NCBI RefSeq assembly: GCF_000214415.1 | Contig: NC_015562.1 | Span: 1,651,130 to 1,715,129 of the forward strand | Source: Methanotorris igneus Kol 5 | GTDB taxonomy: Archaea; AGJL01; Methanococci; Methanococcales; Methanococcaceae | Reading direction: 5' to 3' | Length of the DNA: 64,000 nucleotides | Part shown: positions 52,181-64,000 of the stretch, one piece after another | How the letters are laid out: each line of letters starts with the position of its first letter | Numbering within the stretch: position 1 is the first letter of the stretch | Notes under the pieces: model-generated | Told to the model about the DNA's origin: nothing | Database searches by the model: none | Seen by the model: only the letters and a program-made list of their open reading frames with translations | Translations under genes and position numbers: made by a program

Positions 52181-52783
52181 ATGGATAAAGCCATAGATCT
52201 TAAAAAAGGGGAACGAGTGGCAATAATAAGTGCTATATTGACTTTTACCATAGCATTAATAAAAGGAATAGTTGGTTATATATCTGGAAGTATTGCACTT
52301 ATAGCTGATGCTTTACACTCATTTTCAGATGTTTTGGGACCAATTGCCGTTTATGTGGGATTGAAATTTGCTCAAAAAGACCCAAATGAAAGATTTCCGT
52401 ATGGATACTATAGGGCAGAGACACTTGCGTCTTTGGTTGTTTCCTTTTTGATATTTATTACTGGGATTGAAACGCTTAGGGAGTCTATTGAAAGAATAAG
52501 CAATCCAACAACAATATCCCATCCTTTTGCAGCCATTTTAGCATTATTAATATCCTTAGCAGTTACTTATTACCTCTACAAATACAAGGAGAGGGTAGGT
52601 AAAGAGATACACTCACAGGCACTTATGGGAGAAGGACAACATTCATTAGTTGATTTTTACACATCAGTAGCAGCATTGATAGCAATAATTAGCTCTTATT
52701 TTGGATTTACAATAATAGAACCAATTGTGGAGGCAATTATAAGTATTGCCTTCCGAAACTGTTATATATTAGATGAGTGTTAG
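52181..52783 (+). pseudogene. Cation diffusion facilitator, truncated by an IS607 element
   Basis: The first 189 residues are a normal CDF transporter: GSIALIADALHSFSDVLG (metal-site His/Asp), FPYGYYRAETLASLVVSFLI, and the second site EGQHSLVDFYTS. At about 52750, in helix six, the frame runs into the element and adds AFRNCYILDEC before a stop. The last helix and the cytoplasmic metal-binding domain are lost, so activity is unlikely. The missing 3' part is not found on the other side of the element. Confidence 0.85.
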
Positions 52784-52802
52784 TTATTATTGGTGAGTAA
52801 TT

Positions 52803-53432
52803 GTGAGTTTAGAAAGACTATATACGATGAAGGAAGCTTGTGAATTGTTGGGAGTTCATATAAAAACACTGCAAAGATGGGATAGAGAGGGAAAAATAAA
52901 GTGTGTTAGAACTGTGGGGGGAAAGAGGAGGGTTCCAGAGAGTGAAATAAAACGAATATTAGGAATTAAAGATAAAGAACAAAGAAAAATTATCGGCTAT
53001 GCAAGGGTTTCATCTAACACACAAAAAGACGATTTAGAAAGGCAAATAGACGCGATAAAATCATACGCAAAAGATAGGGGCTGGAATATAGAGATATTAA
53101 AAGATGTTGGTAGTGGATTAAGCGAAAAAAGAAAAAACTACAGAAAACTTTTAAAAATGGTTATAAACCGGGAGGTTGAGAAAGTAATAATTGCCTATCC
53201 AGATAGATTGACAAGATTTGGCTTTGAAACATTAAAAGAATTCTTTAAATCTTACGGAACGGAGGTAATCGTTATTAATAAGAAATGTAAGGCTCCACAA
53301 GAAGAGTTAGTAGAAGATTTAATAACCATTATCTCCTATTTCGCAAGAAAATTATACGGAATGCGTTCCCACAAATATAAAAAACTTATAAAGACAGTTA
53401 AAGAAATTGTGGGCGAGAATAATGCAAAATAA
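52803..53432 (+). CDS. tnpA: IS607 serine recombinase (TnpA)
   Basis: 209 residues: MerR-type helix-turn-helix at the N terminus ([20 protein letters not shown]) and a resolvase domain with the nucleophile Ser in [10 protein letters not shown], then [12 protein letters not shown] and [15 protein letters not shown]. All hallmark residues are intact. It overlaps tnpB by 11 to 26 bases. Starts with GTG; the preceding GGTGAG supports this. Confidence 0.9.
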
Positions 53433-54702
53433 AAACAAACTTCCATCCGAAATCGTATTAACTTATAAGATTAAACATAATTACGATTTAAAGAACTTGT
53501 TAGATAAATTTATAAACCTCTCTCAGAAAGCAGTTGATATTATCTGGGAAAATATCAACTGGAAAGAAAAAGAAGTTAAACATCGATTTAAATCTAAAAA
53601 TAAATACAAATACTACACAACCACCCGATTAATCCCAGAAATTCCAAAAGATAAGGATTTCAAAAGAGAACTAAGAAATTATTTACTAAATGGATGGAAT
53701 TTTGCTTCTCATTATGTCGATGGAGCTATTAAAGTGGCTTACTCTACAATAGAGAGTTGGAAATCGAATTATTTAGATGGTAAAAGAAAAAGAAATAAAC
53801 CGACATTTAAAAGACCTTTTGTTAGAGTTAAAAATACCCTAATAAAATACGATAAAGAAAATGGAACGATAAGGATAACGATAAAAGCGAGGAAGGAGTA
53901 TTTAGTTTTAGACATTAAAAATGAATGGTTTTTCGAAAAAATTAAAGGTTTTGACATTGGAGAGATAATATTAAAAGACAGTGAAGCATTAATAACCTTT
54001 AAAAAACCTTTAAATATATTTGATAAAAAAGTCGTTATCGGTGTAGATAGCAATCTAAAATCCTTAGATTTATTCCATCCAGAAGAAGGGTGGATTAGAA
54101 TTGATTTATCTGAACTGCGTAGAATAAAGAATGTTTATGATGTTATTATCGATAAGTTAAAGTCGATTTATAAAAAAGCCCCAAAAAGAATCAGTATCTT
54201 GCTAAAAAAGTATTATAATAGGAGAAAAAATCGAGTTGAAGATTTTATTAACAAATTAACCTCCCAATTGTCAAAGCTTTTCCCAGATGCAATTTTTATC
54301 TTTGAGGATTTGGATAAGCCCAATATGTATAAAAATTCGAACTTTAACAGAGATTTAGATAGAACGAGTTGGAGAGAGATAGCGAAAAAGTTAGAGTATA
54401 AGAGTATTGTTTTTTACGTTAATCCTCACTATACTTCAAAAACCTGTCCTATATGCGGGAGTAAAATGGAGTCCCAAGAGGGACAGGTTGTAAAATGTGA
54501 AAAATGTGGAGTTTTCAATAGGCAGTTCGTCGGCTCTTTTAATATCTTTAAAAGAGGAGTTAAATTAGTTAAAAAACTCTTAGGCGGAGTTGGGGTTCTC
54601 CCGGAGCGAAGCGACGGGAACTTAAAAACCGTTAGGTTTTTATGTCCGTGGCTGGGGTGGAGGTCGATGATTTACTCTCCAATGAACCCAGAGGAGAGTT
54701 GA
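53422..54702 (+). CDS. tnpB: TnpB-family RNA-guided nuclease homologue (RuvC-III Asp missing)
   Basis: About 426 residues, co-linear with the 23.7-kb copy ([53 protein letters not shown]). RuvC-III reads [11 protein letters not shown]: Asn and Gln stand where most TnpBs have DRD. The protein's 3' coding end runs into the conserved right-end sequence TTATGTCC…GATGTCACCCAAG. The ATG at 53422 overlaps the recombinase stop. Confidence 0.85.
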
Positions 54703-54719
54703 GACCGATGTCACCCAAG

Positions 54720-54787
54720 TCCATCGTGAGGGTTAATTTAAGCGGGAGTACTTTTATTCACATTTACTCCTAAATCCTCACGATGGA
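54720..54787 (+). ncRNA. Right-end hairpin of the IS607 element
   Basis: Arms 54720-54731 (TCCATCGTGAGG) and 54776-54787 pair perfectly over 12 bases, with an inner GGAGTA/TACTCC stem. It directly follows the conserved CACCCAAG, the place where TnpB guide RNAs normally end. Stem sequence is unlike the two sister copies. Confidence 0.45.
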
Positions 54788-54793
54788 TAGACC

Positions 54794-54918
54794 CCGAAGA
54801 GTTAACTGCAAGTGTTGAAGAACAGAATAGAACTATTGGAGAAATAGGTAGAGCTACAGAAGAGATGACTGAAATATCAAATAAACTTGCAGAATCTGCA
54901 AATAGATTCAAAGTATAG
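54794..54918 (+). pseudogene. 3' remnant of a methyl-accepting chemotaxis protein gene
   Basis: Directly after the element, the frame (from 54796) reads EELTASVEEQNRTIGEIGRA then TEEMTEISNKLAESANRFKV and a stop. EELTASVEEQ and the heptad helix are typical of the C-terminal end of chemoreceptor signalling domains. The rest of the receptor is absent; no che gene is in the window. Confidence 0.75.
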
Positions 54919-55173
54919 TTATATAATCCCACATTGCAAATCTCATCCAGATTCTTTTTTTAGTTTTTTATATGAGAAATCTCCAAAATATTTATAAGAC
55001 TCTCAAAATAAATTAATTTAATAGTTTTTAACACTGTTTTATCTACTTTATTTGTTTTTAATTTAGTACTCTAATATAAACTACCAAATTTCGAAAATAT
55101 AAATAAAACTATCATTAATGATATATTGAAGATAAGCGTAATTTAATTTATACTAAATAACTGGGATGAAAAC

Positions 55174-58602: not shown

Positions 58603-59577
58603 TCAGTTTTTAAGAGTTAACTTTTTATACACAATAATGCTCACATTATCTTTTGTTTTTTCCAATGCAATTTTTAATAATTCATTTACAATATCTTTTG
58701 AATTGTTATTGCTACTTACAGTTTTTAAAATAGTTTCCTTTTCAACATAGTCATGAAGTCCATCAGAACTCATCAACAATACATCACCATCAATTAAATC
58801 CCATTCGTAATCATCTACCTTAAATTCATCCAATCCCAATGCTGATGTAATAATATTTTTCATTGGATGGTGCATTGCCTCTTTTTCTGAAATATGTCCC
58901 TCATCTATTAACGCCTGAACTAAGGAGTGGTCTTTTGTTCTAAAAACTATTTCTCCATCTCTGATTAAATAAGCCCTACTATCCCCACAATTTGCAATAA
59001 TGCATTTATCTCCTTTAACTATTGCAGTTGTTAATGTTGTTCCCATCCCTTCCTTATCTCCAATGGCATTTTCTTTTATTTTGTTGTGTGCTGTATTGTA
59101 TGCATCTTTTAAAAGTTTTTTTATCTCTTCAATTGACAAATTTTCATTATAGTTTTTTGTAATAACTTCTTCTAAAATATCCACTGCCATTTTTGATGCA
59201 ACATCTCCTGCATTATGCCCTCCAATTCCATCTGCAACTGCTAATATGTAGATGTCTTTTATTTTTTTAATTAAAATATAATCTTCATTGTTTTCCCTAT
59301 TTCCCTTGTGGGATACACCGTAAGCGTTATTTTCCTCAAAAATAATTTCATTGCGGTTAATGTTTTCAGTAGATTTAATTTCTGAAAGTTTAGGTTCAAT
59401 TTTTGGTATTTCAATATTTTGGGGTTTTTCTGGGATTTCTATGTTATATTTATTATCTATATTGTTTTTCTCTTCAATATCTAATTTTGTAGGGATTTTA
59501 TGATTTCCTTCCTCTTTACTCTCAACAAATTCAAATATTTTTTTTAGCCCTTTATTAATAATTTTTTTAAAGTCCAT
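58603..59577 (-). CDS. PP2C-family Ser/Thr phosphatase
   Basis: About 324 residues: a charged N-terminal extension (about 1-80) with no recognised domain, then a PP2C/PPM catalytic domain with NRENNEDYILIK, VADGIGGHNAGDVAS (metal Asp-Gly), TTAIVKGDKCIIANCGDSRAYL, SSDGLHDYVEKE and KTKDNVSIIVYKK (last metal Asp). All metal-binding acids are present, so it should be active. GGTGAA precedes the ATG at 59577, 38 bases after the kinase gene's stop, so the two are very likely cotranscribed and act as a kinase-phosphatase pair. It lacks a membrane helix. Confidence 0.9.
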   Translation of the reverse strand: MDFKKIINKGLKKIFEFVESKEEGNHKIPTKLDIEEKNNIDNKYNIEIPEKPQNIEIPKIEPKLSEIKSTENINRNEIIFEENNAYGVSHKGNRENNEDYILIKKIKDIYILAVADGIGGHNAGDVASKMAVDILEEVITKNYNENLSIEEIKKLLKDAYNTAHNKIKENAIGDKEGMGTTLTTAIVKGDKCIIANCGDSRAYLIRDGEIVFRTKDHSLVQALIDEGHISEKEAMHHPMKNIITSALGLDEFKVDDYEWDLIDGDVLLMSSDGLHDYVEKETILKTVSSNNNSKDIVNELLKIALEKTKDNVSIIVYKKLTLKN

Positions 59578-59615
59578 ATTTTCACCATTTAAAAAATAAT
59601 TTATTAAAAAGAAAA

Positions 59616-62600
59616 TTATTTCCATTCCTTCTTAATCCTATTCAATAAAACTTCAAGTTTTTCTATGGTGTCTTTTCCAAGTGGGATACTTTCTTTAATT
59701 AGGAACTCTACATGTTTTATAGCCCCTTCTAATTCTTTTTTATTTTCTTCTGATTTGACATAATCTTTTAATATTTCTAATGCATCTAATAAACCAACCT
59801 TATCATTTGCCTTAGCACAATTTAAGGCAAGTTTTGTTATTGAATCTATTAGTTCTTTTGTTAATCTATTAATTTTTGATTTATCTGTTGATTTTTTAAT
59901 TAATTCTGTGGTTTTTGTTAATGTCTTTTTAAGTTCTTCTTTTTCTTTGTTCAGTTCTTCTAAGGAATTTAGAGCGTTTAAAAACTCATCTACTGACTGG
60001 AACCTATCTTCTTTTCTCTTTGCTAAAAGTTTTTCAAATATTCCATCAAATATTGATAGTTCTGGGTTTATTTTTGATGGCGGTGTTGGTTTTATGTTGG
60101 GATTTATTATTTTCAAAGACAGTTGGGCTAATGAAGTTGCTTCATAAGGTAGTTTTCCAGTTAAAAGTTCGTAGAATAATAATCCCAACTGGTAAATATC
60201 CGTTCTTTTATCTGTTTTTCCATATTCTTCTTCATCTATTTGCTCCGGTGCTGAATATAGTAAAGTTAATCCCTTTGTGGTTGTTGCTGTTGATGATTTT
60301 GCTCCTATTTTAGCCAATCCCCAATCTGTGATTTTTGGGGTTAAGTTTGAAGTTAGTAGTATGTTGGATGGTTTTATGTCTCTGTGGATTATATTCTTGG
60401 AATGAGCGTGTTTTAACCCCTCTGCTATTTGTTTTATTAATTTTATGGCATCTTTTGGATTTACTGGTTTTGGATAATCCTCTAAGTTGTTTATTTTCCT
60501 TCCGTTTATAGTGCAACCTTCAACATATTCCATTTCAATGTGCGGGATTGGTTCTTCAAAGGCATCATACATTTTAACAATATTTGGATGGTCGAGGTTT
60601 TTCCATGCTCTAATTTCTTTTAATAGGAATTTTTTGGCTTTTTCATCTAAATTAGGAACTTTTAATGCTATTGGTTGAGTTCCACCTTTTCTTTTAACTT
60701 TGAATACCTTTCCAAATCCACCTTCTCCTAATTTTTGTAGTGGGATGTATTTGTTTAATAGGGATTGTGGGAAGTCAGGTATATTGTTGGTGGTTTGAGT
60801 TGATGTTTGGGAAGGTTTTAACTCTGTTGATTCTGAAGGTTTTCTTTTTCTCATCTTAACTATTCCAACAGTTGCTATCAAGACGAGGAATCCTAAGAGT
60901 ATATAGGATTTTGGAAAACTGGATGTTTGTGAGGAGGATTTGGGTGTTGAAGTTTGTTCGGTAGATATTTTTTGGGTGTTGGTATTGGTTTTTTCTGTTT
61001 TTTGTGAGGATGTTGAGGGTGAGTTAGGTGAAGAGTATATTACATTACCGTTATCATCAATGATTGAGTCTATGGTTATAGATAATCCGTCATTTTTACT
61101 ATTTACTATTTCTGCTCCATCAAATCTCACTTGGAAGTCAGTTAAATCATAATTATTAGGATTTGATACTACAACTTTCCAAGTGTTTGAATTTATTCGT
61201 TCTACGGTTGTAATTGGTTCTTTGTCGGCATATTTTCTTACTCTGATCCAATCTAAGGTTGTGTCTGAGCCACTCCATGATGAAACGAGAACATGCTTTA
61301 CATTTGGAATGTCTTTTATATCATTATAACCATAGTCAAAGTGATATTCAACGTTTGGATCTTTTAATATGAAGGAATTTGGAGCAATTGTAGCTGATAC
61401 AATACCTACTAACCCATTGTGTGGAACATCATAACCTTTTACTATCTTGCCACCAGGATAGTAAAATCCCCACCAATCAGGTCCTCCATCGTCATATCTA
61501 TAGTTCAGTCTAATAGTTCCAAACCAATATCTAACATAATCAGTGTGAGACACTACTTTAGTTTCAATTATTACTGGTTGTTGTATTTCATAAGTAGAGT
61601 ACAGTCCATTACCTACATCTAAACCAAAAGCTTGTCCATTTGTAGTAGTATAATGTTCTGGATTTAGTATTATTTTACTATTGCTGATAGAATAAGACCC
61701 TATAGCTATCCATTTATTTCTATCTAAACTCGTTCCATCAAAATCATCAAAGAATTCAAATACCGCGTCTCCATTAGGAGTTTTTGAAGGATCTTTATGA
61801 ACTATTAGGACAACTTTACCATTTGCAGGGATATTGTGTATCTTAGTCCAGACATGATATTTGCCGTCAGTATGTTCAATCCAATAAGAAGATATTTTTT
61901 GGGTATTGGTATTGGTTTTTTCTGTTTTTTGTGAGGATGTTGAGGGTGAGTTAGGTGAAGAGTATATTACATTACCATTATCATCAATGATTGAGTCTAT
62001 GGTTATAGATAATCCGTCATTTTTACTATTTACTATTTCTGCTCCATCAAATCTCACTTGGAAGTCAGTTAAATCATAATTATTAGGATTTGATACTACA
62101 ACTTTCCAAGTGTTTGAATTTATTCGTTCTACGGTTGTAATTGGTTCTTTATCTGCGTATTTTCTTACTCTGATCCAATCCAAGGTTGTGTCTGAGCAAC
62201 TCCATGATGAAACAAAAACATGCTTTGCATTTGGAATGTCTTTTATATCATCATAACCATAGTCAAAGTGATATTCAACGTTTGGATCTTTTAATATGAA
62301 GGAATTTGGTGTAATTGTAGCTGATACAATGCCCACTAACCCATTGGGTGGAACATCATAACCTTTTGCTATCCTGCCACCAGGATAATGAAATCCCCAC
62401 CAATCAGGTCCTCCATCGTCATAACCATAACTCAGTCCAGTAGTTCCAAACCAATATCTAACGTAATCAGTGTGAGACACTACTTTAGTTTCAATCACTA
62501 CTGGTTGTTGTATTTCATAAGTAGAGTACAATCCATTATGTACATCTAAACCATAAACTTGTCCACGTGTGGTATAATGTTCTGGATTTAGTATTATTTT

Positions 62601-62909
62601 ACTATTGCTGATAGAATAAGACCCTATAGCTATCCATTTACTTGTATCCAAACTATTACCATCAAAATCATCAAAGAATTCAAATACTTTATCTCCATTA
62701 GGAGTTTTTGAAGGATCTTTATGAACTATTAAAACGACTTTACCATTTGCAGGGATATGAGGTATTTTAGTCCAGACATAATATTTGCCGTCAGTATGTT
62801 CAATCCAATAAGATAAAGTGTTAGTACTAACATCCTCTCCAAAAACCACTCCAATATTAATAAAGATTCCAATCAATACTAACCCAGTTATTAAACTTCT
62901 AAGTTTCAC
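59616..62909 (-). CDS. Receptor-like Hanks-type Ser/Thr kinase with duplicated DUF2341/lectin-like ectodomain
   Basis: 1097 residues. Signal peptide about 1-24; ectodomain repeats at about 33-340 and 341-650, each with DUF2341-like YWIEHTDGKY…VFEFFDDFDG followed by a jelly-roll-like body (DDGGPDWWGF); Ser/Thr-rich stalk; membrane helix about 669-685; cytoplasmic kinase about 720-985. Kinase motifs: LGEGGFGKVFKV (728-737), Lys750, Glu765, HRDIKPSNI (842-850), DWG (862-864, instead of DFG), SAPEQ (886-890), Asp904. All catalytic residues are present. A helical C-terminal tail of about 110 residues follows. Starts with GTG after GGTGAT. A TATA-like TATATATTTA lies about 25 bases before that site, so it may have its own promoter. 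Confidence 0.93.
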   Translation of the reverse strand: MKLRSLITGLVLIGIFINIGVVFGEDVSTNTLSYWIEHTDGKYYVWTKIPHIPANGKVVLIVHKDPSKTPNGDKVFEFFDDFDGNSLDTSKWIAIGSYSISNSKIILNPEHYTTRGQVYGLDVHNGLYSTYEIQQPVVIETKVVSHTDYVRYWFGTTGLSYGYDDGGPDWWGFHYPGGRIAKGYDVPPNGLVGIVSATITPNSFILKDPNVEYHFDYGYDDIKDIPNAKHVFVSSWSCSDTTLDWIRVRKYADKEPITTVERINSNTWKVVVSNPNNYDLTDFQVRFDGAEIVNSKNDGLSITIDSIIDDNGNVIYSSPNSPSTSSQKTEKTNTNTQKISSYWIEHTDGKYHVWTKIHNIPANGKVVLIVHKDPSKTPNGDAVFEFFDDFDGTSLDRNKWIAIGSYSISNSKIILNPEHYTTTNGQAFGLDVGNGLYSTYEIQQPVIIETKVVSHTDYVRYWFGTIRLNYRYDDGGPDWWGFYYPGGKIVKGYDVPHNGLVGIVSATIAPNSFILKDPNVEYHFDYGYNDIKDIPNVKHVLVSSWSGSDTTLDWIRVRKYADKEPITTVERINSNTWKVVVSNPNNYDLTDFQVRFDGAEIVNSKNDGLSITIDSIIDDNGNVIYSSPNSPSTSSQKTEKTNTNTQKISTEQTSTPKSSSQTSSFPKSYILLGFLVLIATVGIVKMRKRKPSESTELKPSQTSTQTTNNIPDFPQSLLNKYIPLQKLGEGGFGKVFKVKRKGGTQPIALKVPNLDEKAKKFLLKEIRAWKNLDHPNIVKMYDAFEEPIPHIEMEYVEGCTINGRKINNLEDYPKPVNPKDAIKLIKQIAEGLKHAHSKNIIHRDIKPSNILLTSNLTPKITDWGLAKIGAKSSTATTTKGLTLLYSAPEQIDEEEYGKTDKRTDIYQLGLLFYELLTGKLPYEATSLAQLSLKIINPNIKPTPPSKINPELSIFDGIFEKLLAKRKEDRFQSVDEFLNALNSLEELNKEKEELKKTLTKTTELIKKSTDKSKINRLTKELIDSITKLALNCAKANDKVGLLDALEILKDYVKSEENKKELEGAIKHVEFLIKESIPLGKDTIEKLEVLLNRIKKEWK

Positions 62910-62986
62910 AATATCACCACCTTATCTAATGAACATAAATATATAGATTTTTAAAAAATATAAAAAATATAAAATTTTTTATTAAC

Positions 62987-63999
62987 TCATCCCCCAAACT
63001 CCTCAGCCCATTTCTCATACTTCTCAATATCTTTTTTAGTCAAAGGACTTTTTATTTTCTTAAATGCCTCTTCAAAATCATCATTAGTTAGTGGTCTAAC
63101 ATTTAACTTTCTTTTTCTCAATTCGTTGTAGGGAAGTTTAGCCAATTCATGTAAGTCCTTATTCACATCCCTAATCATATTCCATATTGCCTCTTGACAG
63201 AGATTTTTCAAATCCCTACCAGAATAAAACCTTTCCACACACTTATCTGCAATTTCATCTAAATTAACATTCAACTTCACCCCTTTTGTGTTAATTTTAA
63301 TAATCTCCTTTGTTGCCTCCTTATCTGGTAATGGAATATAAATTCTCCTTGAAAACCTTGACAAAATTGCCTCATCTAAATCCCATGGTGTATTTGTTGC
63401 TGCTAATGTCAATATTAACCTATCCCTCCCTTTATCTTGAAAACCATCCAATTCAGTTAAAAGGGTAGATAGCATCCTCCTTGATGCCTCACTTGTTTCT
63501 TCACTTCTTTTTGTGGTTAAGGCATCTATTTCATCTATAAACACTATACTTGGAGCCATCTCTCTTGCAACATCATACAATGCACTGATTATCTTTGAGG
63601 ACTCTCCATAGTATTTGCTTAAAACAGATGATGCCTTCACATTAAAAAATGTTGCCTCTAAACTTCCAGCAGATGCAGATGCTAATAGTGTTTTACCTGT
63701 TCCTGGAGGACCAAATAACAAAATCCCTTTCCATGGCTGTATTGATGCTGGCTTTTGAAGTGCTGATATAACAATAGTTTCCATCATAAGTTGTTTAACT
63801 TCTTTCAACCCCCCTATGTCCTCCCATGTAATAGGAGATTTTTGTATTAGGTTGTTTTTCACAAAATTTTTAAACTTGTCAATTTCATCTTCTACCTCAG
63901 CTTTTGTAGTGTTTGATGATTCTGATTTTTTTGCAGGTTTGGATTTATTAACTTTTGATGGATTACTTATGCTATTTGCCACCATTTCCCATTTTTTAG
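62987..63999 (-). CDS. Vps4/CdvC-like AAA ATPase (probably truncated by window edge)
   Basis: One AAA module: WEDIGGLKEVKQLMMETIVI, Walker A LFGPPGTGKTLLAS, Walker B IVFIDEIDAL, and the meiotic-clade marks SEASRRMLSTLLTELDG and ATNTPWDLDEAILSRFSRRI then YIPLPDKEA. The C-terminal helix (KKDIEKYEKWAEEFGG) resembles that of Vps4/katanin/CdvC. The frame is open to the right edge (AKKWE before the ATG at 63985), so an N-terminal, perhaps MIT-like, domain may lie upstream. Proteasome-type features are absent. Same strand as the kinase and phosphatase, 77 bases from the kinase start. Function: substrate remodelling, possibly of an ESCRT-like or other filament. Confidence 0.85.
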   Translation of the reverse strand, partial: KKWEMVANSISNPSKVNKSKPAKKSESSNTTKAEVEDEIDKFKNFVKNNLIQKSPITWEDIGGLKEVKQLMMETIVISALQKPASIQPWKGILLFGPPGTGKTLLASASAGSLEATFFNVKASSVLSKYYGESSKIISALYDVAREMAPSIVFIDEIDALTTKRSEETSEASRRMLSTLLTELDGFQDKGRDRLILTLAATNTPWDLDEAILSRFSRRIYIPLPDKEATKEIIKINTKGVKLNVNLDEIADKCVERFYSGRDLKNLCQEAIWNMIRDVNKDLHELAKLPYNELRKRKLNVRPLTNDDFEEAFKKIKSPLTKKDIEKYEKWAEEFGG

Positions 64000-64000
64000 C

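Follow-up and report, generated by a model that had tools for sequence, protein, structure and literature searches.

The closest described relatives of the locus considered here are the archaeal endosomal sorting complexes required for transport (ESCRT) systems of the "Main" clade, which was defined by Makarova et al. in 2024 with Methanococcales named in it (PMC11188069 / PMC10936438). The clade comprises Vps4, ESCRT-III, arCOG09748 (helical, coiled coil, globular and winged helix) and arCOG08177 (Cas2-like plus TBP-fold). Membrane Ser/Thr kinases (STKs) and phosphatases (STPs) are present in many of its loci; most of the kinases carry Ig-like repeats, PEGA appears in the figure key, and vesicle formation and sorting are argued to be the role, since FtsZ is present (PMC11188069 / PMC10936438). 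The window analysed here is a stretch of 64,000 nucleotides from Methanotorris igneus Kol 5 (G000:C1:1651130-1715129, in a one-contig genome of 1,854,197 bases), and it ends inside a locus of this already described kind, very probably a Main-group archaeal ESCRT system. Three genes at the end of the window very probably form the tail of an eight-gene ESCRT operon with a receptor kinase and a phosphatase, and it is close to certain that the locus is an ESCRT locus. The initial annotation, made from the window alone, held that no archaeal unit of this kind had been described; this was wrong, as Makarova et al. report the Main clade with Methanococcales, kinases and phosphatases.

In common with the Main clade, the locus has Vps4, ESCRT-III, a coiled-coil and a small protein of fitting architecture, a membrane STK and an STP. 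It differs by a DUF2341-based rather than Ig-like ectodomain, by an ATPase_2 gene inserted between the ESCRT-III genes, and by the presence of two ESCRT-III paralogs, E3a and E3b, that are about 23% identical to each other. The Cdv system of Sulfolobales, made up of CdvA, CdvB paralogs and CdvC, likewise combines paralogous ESCRT-III-like proteins with an ATPase of the Vps4 type whose N-terminus is MIT-like, whereas the locus adds a kinase and a phosphatase, lies in a genome with FtsZ, and is absent from many relatives. The same core pair is found in the eukaryotic and Asgard ESCRT-III/Vps4 systems, and Asgard Vps4 falls on the side of the ATPase in the tree described below; here, a receptor kinase is present instead, and no ubiquitin genes were recognised at the locus.

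All genes of the operon are on the minus strand. The PP2C-family STP (340 residues) occupies 58603..59625 (L009:4603-5625) and overlaps by 10 bp the gene for the one-pass receptor STK (1097 residues) at 59616..62909 (L009:5616-8909), where L009 denotes G000:C1:1705130-1725000 and an L009 position plus 54000 gives the window position. The Vps4-type AAA ATPase follows after 77 bp at 62987..64000 and is cut by the window end, so that the C-terminal 337 of its 397 residues lie inside; the full gene spans L009:8987-10180, to window-equivalent 64180. The block of three same-strand genes in the initial annotation is thus borne out by the open reading frames and by Pfam, and extension past 64000 revealed two ESCRT-III-like genes in the same operon. 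From 5' to 3', the operon reads small protein (174 residues, L009:14474-14998), coiled-coil protein (574 residues, L009:12753-14477), E3b (209 residues, L009:12108-12737), archaeal ATPase_2 (L009:10843-11859, window-equivalent 64843-65859), E3a (214 residues, L009:10218-10862), Vps4, kinase and PP2C, the first five lying beyond the window. The genes overlap or are separated by short gaps, except for 248 bp between E3b and ATPase_2. The first two are conserved, and fit candidate arCOG08177 and arCOG09748, respectively, in size, position and architecture. A Ski2-like helicase gene is located upstream; since it is without counterpart in the loci of relatives, the operon is counted as eight genes.

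The ATPase matches Pfam AAA (5.5e-40) and Vps4_C (3.6e-8, 33.7 bits vs a cut-off of 21.3). Its AAA core (residues 153-284, 63329..63724), with GPPGTGKT, FIDEID and a pore-loop-like stretch SKYYGESSK, is strongly conserved in an alignment of 13 relatives, and the Vps4_C oligomerisation element (residues 352-396, 62993..63127) leads to the protein end EKYEKWAEEFGG. In profile searches of the PDB and NCBIfam, Cdc48/p97 ranks first for this protein, partly as two-domain proteins score twice; because of this ranking, a tree of 56 AAA domains was built. The ATPase is situated on the Vps4 side of the tree, where a 100/98 branch splits off Cdc48 D1, Cdc48 D2 and PAN, together with relatives from Thermococci and Archaeoglobus metagenome-assembled genomes (MAGs), a Thermoplasmata protein, an Asgard pair and a single-AAA Desulfurococcales protein. 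A grouping with PAN or Cdc48, named in the initial annotation as the outcome at odds with its Vps4/CdvC-like assignment, does not appear; the assignment agrees with the tree, Vps4_C, the MIT-like domain and the ESCRT-III-like neighbours. It is therefore highly improbable that the protein is a Cdc48/PAN-type unfoldase beside an unrelated bacterial-style kinase/phosphatase pair, as in a generic signalling or stress cluster. That reading draws on the general likeness of AAA domains and on NCBIfam scores for CDC48 and PAN that are no worse than that for CdvC, but the tree, Vps4_C and the MIT-like N-terminus disagree with it, all genomes that encode a full-length ortholog also have ESCRT-III-like genes, and the same genome encodes separate Cdc48 and PAN proteins.

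The N-terminal 85 residues of the ATPase are predicted as a three-helix bundle (5-25, 29-49 and 54-72) with a predicted local distance difference test (pLDDT) score of 81.6. The top template modelling (TM) score among the PDB matches listed is that of the S. solfataricus Vps4 MIT domain 2v6y (TM 0.70/0.78, root-mean-square deviation 2.0), at a Foldseek E-value of 2.5; further MIT domains among the matches listed are those of MITD1, archaeal 2w2u, calpain-7 and SKD1, with E-values above 1. A sequence-only search of the region against solved structures gave no useful match and no sequence-profile match. Fold prediction alone thus suggests a three-helix MIT-like domain in this position.

The AlphaFold2 model of E3a, obtained from a 19-row alignment (mean pLDDT 75.8), shows a helix at the N-terminus, then a long hairpin, and shorter helices towards the C-terminus. 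Among 350,542 PDB chains, no structural match falls below E = 0.001, and the best is a CdvB2 filament (E 0.044, probability 1.00). More CdvB2 entries come close after it, and CdvB, Asgard ESCRT-IIIB, CHMP1B, CHMP3 and VIPP1 are found in the first 50; a sequence-only search of E3a against solved structures gave no useful match. The model strongly suggests, short of proof, an ESCRT-III-like fold for E3a, the paralog that was modelled.

Several observations weigh against the ESCRT assignment. The Pfam Snf7 search of E3a and E3b gave no match, and E3a reaches only 0.004 with NCBIfam CdvB1/B2, far below the cut-off. Foldseek E-values for the models of E3a and of the ATPase N-terminus are both above 0.01, so that the fold assignments draw their weight from the identity of the high-ranking proteins rather than from statistical significance. 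The tail of E3b, EELFKRLEKE, resembles MIT-interacting motif 1 (MIM1) without its last leucine, and the motif is absent from some orthologs. Finally, the AAA tree leaves out katanin, spastin and fidgetin.

The phylum-level search covered the same 36 Methanococci genomes as the comparison of relatives, and wider sampling was by a scan of genome contigs. Vps4 (E ≤ 1e-60) was detected in 14 of the 36 genomes, in one of which, G029, it is partial and divergent; the ESCRT-III profile matches exactly the other 13, i.e., those with full-length Vps4. Nine further Methanococci genomes and one Archaeoglobus MAG also have Vps4, kinase and PP2C side by side, which confirms that the three are neighbours in relatives and speaks against a chance grouping. 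In two more genomes the contig ends too early to show the trio, and the G024 locus has the kinase without PP2C. Most loci keep the order small protein, coiled-coil protein, E3b, E3a, Vps4, kinase and PP2C; those of G021 and G035 show rearrangements and extra kinases. The same core is found in the Thermococci MAG and the Archaeoglobus MAG. Insertion of ATPase_2 between the ESCRT-III genes is seen in three genomes (G000, G016 and G024). We also note a different but similar-looking ATPase gene after E3a in loci L071 and L072.

The system was undetected in 23 of the 36 Methanococci genomes, among them each of the seven from genus g2. This bears on a role in cell division like that of CdvB/CdvC in Sulfolobus, in favour of which it can be said that the ATPase and the ESCRT-III proteins are homologous to Cdv components. 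Such a role is nevertheless improbable, because the genome contains two genes of the FtsZ family and the whole system is missing from many close relatives; no CdvA-like Pfam match was seen either among the neighbouring genes scanned, the scan being limited to the locus and not genome-wide.

The kinase matches Pfam Pkinase (1.5e-49) and DUF2341 (5.9e-26). Its predicted ectodomain (residues about 25-658, 60936..62837) follows a signal-like N-terminus and contains a unit with DUF2341 that occurs twice; behind the ectodomain, a transmembrane stretch was read by eye at about residues 659-680. One more DUF2341 protein is encoded in the same genome. The cytoplasmic kinase domain (residues 723-971, 59997..60743) has the motifs HRDIKPSN and APE, with DWG replacing DFG, and is followed by a C-terminal helical domain (residues 972-1097, 59619..59996) that is conserved with the kinase in relatives; a PCI/winged-helix-like domain has been reported C-terminal to the kinase in Main-clade systems (PMC11188069). 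The PP2C protein matches Pfam PP2C_2 (3e-19) and PP2C (3.8e-17) and approaches the NCBIfam Stp1/IreP model (4.2e-65, 219.5 bits vs a cut-off of 230). Bacterial PASTA-type pairs (PknB/PstP) likewise join a single-pass Hanks kinase to a PP2C phosphatase, and the generic models match; in the archaeal proteins, however, the ectodomains are DUF2341, PEGA, WD40 or DUF4013 and not PASTA, and the genes are tied to ESCRT rather than to cell-wall synthesis.

In the proposed mechanism, the two ESCRT-III proteins would co-polymerise on the membrane, and Vps4 would bind their tails through its MIT domain and pull subunits out. The receptor kinase would phosphorylate a component of the system upon an outside signal, and PP2C would reverse this. 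We lean toward such phospho-control of the ESCRT system by the kinase and PP2C. The output may be membrane budding, scission or repair, or the sorting of surface proteins, a proposal on which our confidence is evenly balanced. The surface-sensing switch on membrane remodelling proposed in the initial annotation fits the MIT-like domain, the ESCRT-III-like neighbours and the one-pass receptor kinase. The locus would be a compact, operon-encoded case, outside the context of division, of ESCRT activity that appears to be wired directly to a transmembrane receptor kinase. Genetic tools exist for this order of archaea, and since close relatives are entirely without the cassette, its function is testable by adding or removing few genes.

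Comparison with eight related kinases shows 59-81% identity over the kinase and its C-terminal domain, whereas blastp at 1e-3 gave no match between the ectodomain and those of the same eight kinases. Pfam identifies WD40 and PEGA in the ectodomain of G008, PEGA in those of G015, G024 and G035, and DUF4013 in those of G012 and G017; the kinase of the Archaeoglobus MAG has a propeller and PEGA ectodomain, and an extra kinase copy in G035 carries TPRs. Variation of the ectodomain as such is already known from Makarova et al. 2024. The addition made here is its completeness among close relatives, in which, as judged by sequence comparison, the receptor ectodomain is unrelated and the intracellular part is conserved.

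The Vps4 tree rejects G000 and G021, which belong to the same genus, as a clade (approximately unbiased test, p-AU 0.0003), as does the E3a tree (p-AU 0.00005). In both trees, G021 adjoins G035, a member of another family. As far as these trees indicate, vertical descent within the genus is rejected, and the pattern would reflect either lateral transfer or the loss of ancient duplicates. A candidate vertical marker, the neighbouring inositol-phosphate synthase, was dropped because too many genomes lack it. The loci of G035 (L038) and G021 (L013) have several kinases, one with a long TPR region, and shared extra membrane genes; these features, shared across two families, point to transfer of the whole cassette. 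A divergent locus with Vps4, coiled-coil and small-protein genes is present in the Methanococci MAG G029 (L039, G029:C72), its products being about 51, 26 and 30% identical to those of G000; it is possibly a second subtype.

We tentatively consider that the ESCRT core and the intracellular half of the kinase may be a laterally moving chassis to which each lineage fits its own sensor (DUF2341, WD40 propeller, PEGA or DUF4013), although we find this doubtful. If it holds, different surface cues would switch one membrane-remodelling machine, amounting to a prokaryotic receptor-to-ESCRT signalling pathway. The unrelated ectodomains on one chassis, the recurrent inserted ATPase genes, the patchy distribution and the disagreement between taxonomy, at genus and family level, and the trees of Vps4 and E3a would also suit a mobile defence-like module, in which damage by viruses or to the membrane would be sensed by the kinase and answered by ESCRT-driven scission or repair. 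We regard such a module as unlikely, because the kinase and ATPase match defence models only through generic kinase and AAA domains and fit no known defence system, no virus or defence-island context was seen at the window locus, and an accessory physiological function would also account for the patchiness.

The genome scan also returned a Clostridia MAG contig (L148:7339-11590, JAFWXT010000085.1) with genes for an SPFH protein, a protein of ~110 residues, a pair of coiled-coil proteins, and an ATPase whose N-terminus is MIT-like and whose Vps4_C match exceeds the cut-off. Homologs of this ATPase (E ≤ 1e-60) are found in 24 of 297 genomes of the order, and the family is located on the Vps4 side of the AAA tree. 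The full order SPFH, small protein, ESCRT-III-like bE3a, Snf7-like bE3b and Vps4 is present in eight of the 15 loci examined, although in two of the eight the small protein was identified from its place and size alone. Several other loci hold parts (L160-L168, with parts in L169-L172). bE3b in L164 passes Pfam Snf7 (34.0 vs 27.3 bits, E 2.8e-8), and the hairpin region of bE3a aligns to the archaeal E3 profile. The operon often has BrxL-like, trypsin-like or TIR-related genes beside it. Two of the clostridial genomes carry it in their division/sporulation region: in L163:259-10899, it is flanked by spoIIGA with two sigma factors on one side and nrdR on the other, and in L167:1322-10590 by ftsZ and nrdR; BrxL-like and TIR-related genes follow in both. 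Makarova et al. reported that ESCRT was not found in bacteria (PMC11188069 / PMC10936438). A survey of phage-shock-protein systems reported that Vps4 has been transferred to bacteria, where an unrelated TPR/6TM gene takes the place of snf7, and that Snf7 adjoins PspA in some bacteria (PMC11237479). Text searches covering part of the literature found no published description of the clostridial operon.

Elsewhere in the window, the region 52181-54950 contains genes that were named by eye as an IS607-like resolvase and a TnpB-like protein (52803-54702). The cation-efflux gene ahead of them looks cut short (200 residues), and just after the two genes is the apparent tail of a chemotaxis receptor, ending ATEEMTEISNKLAESANRFKV; remnants of two genes thus seem to be joined by the element.

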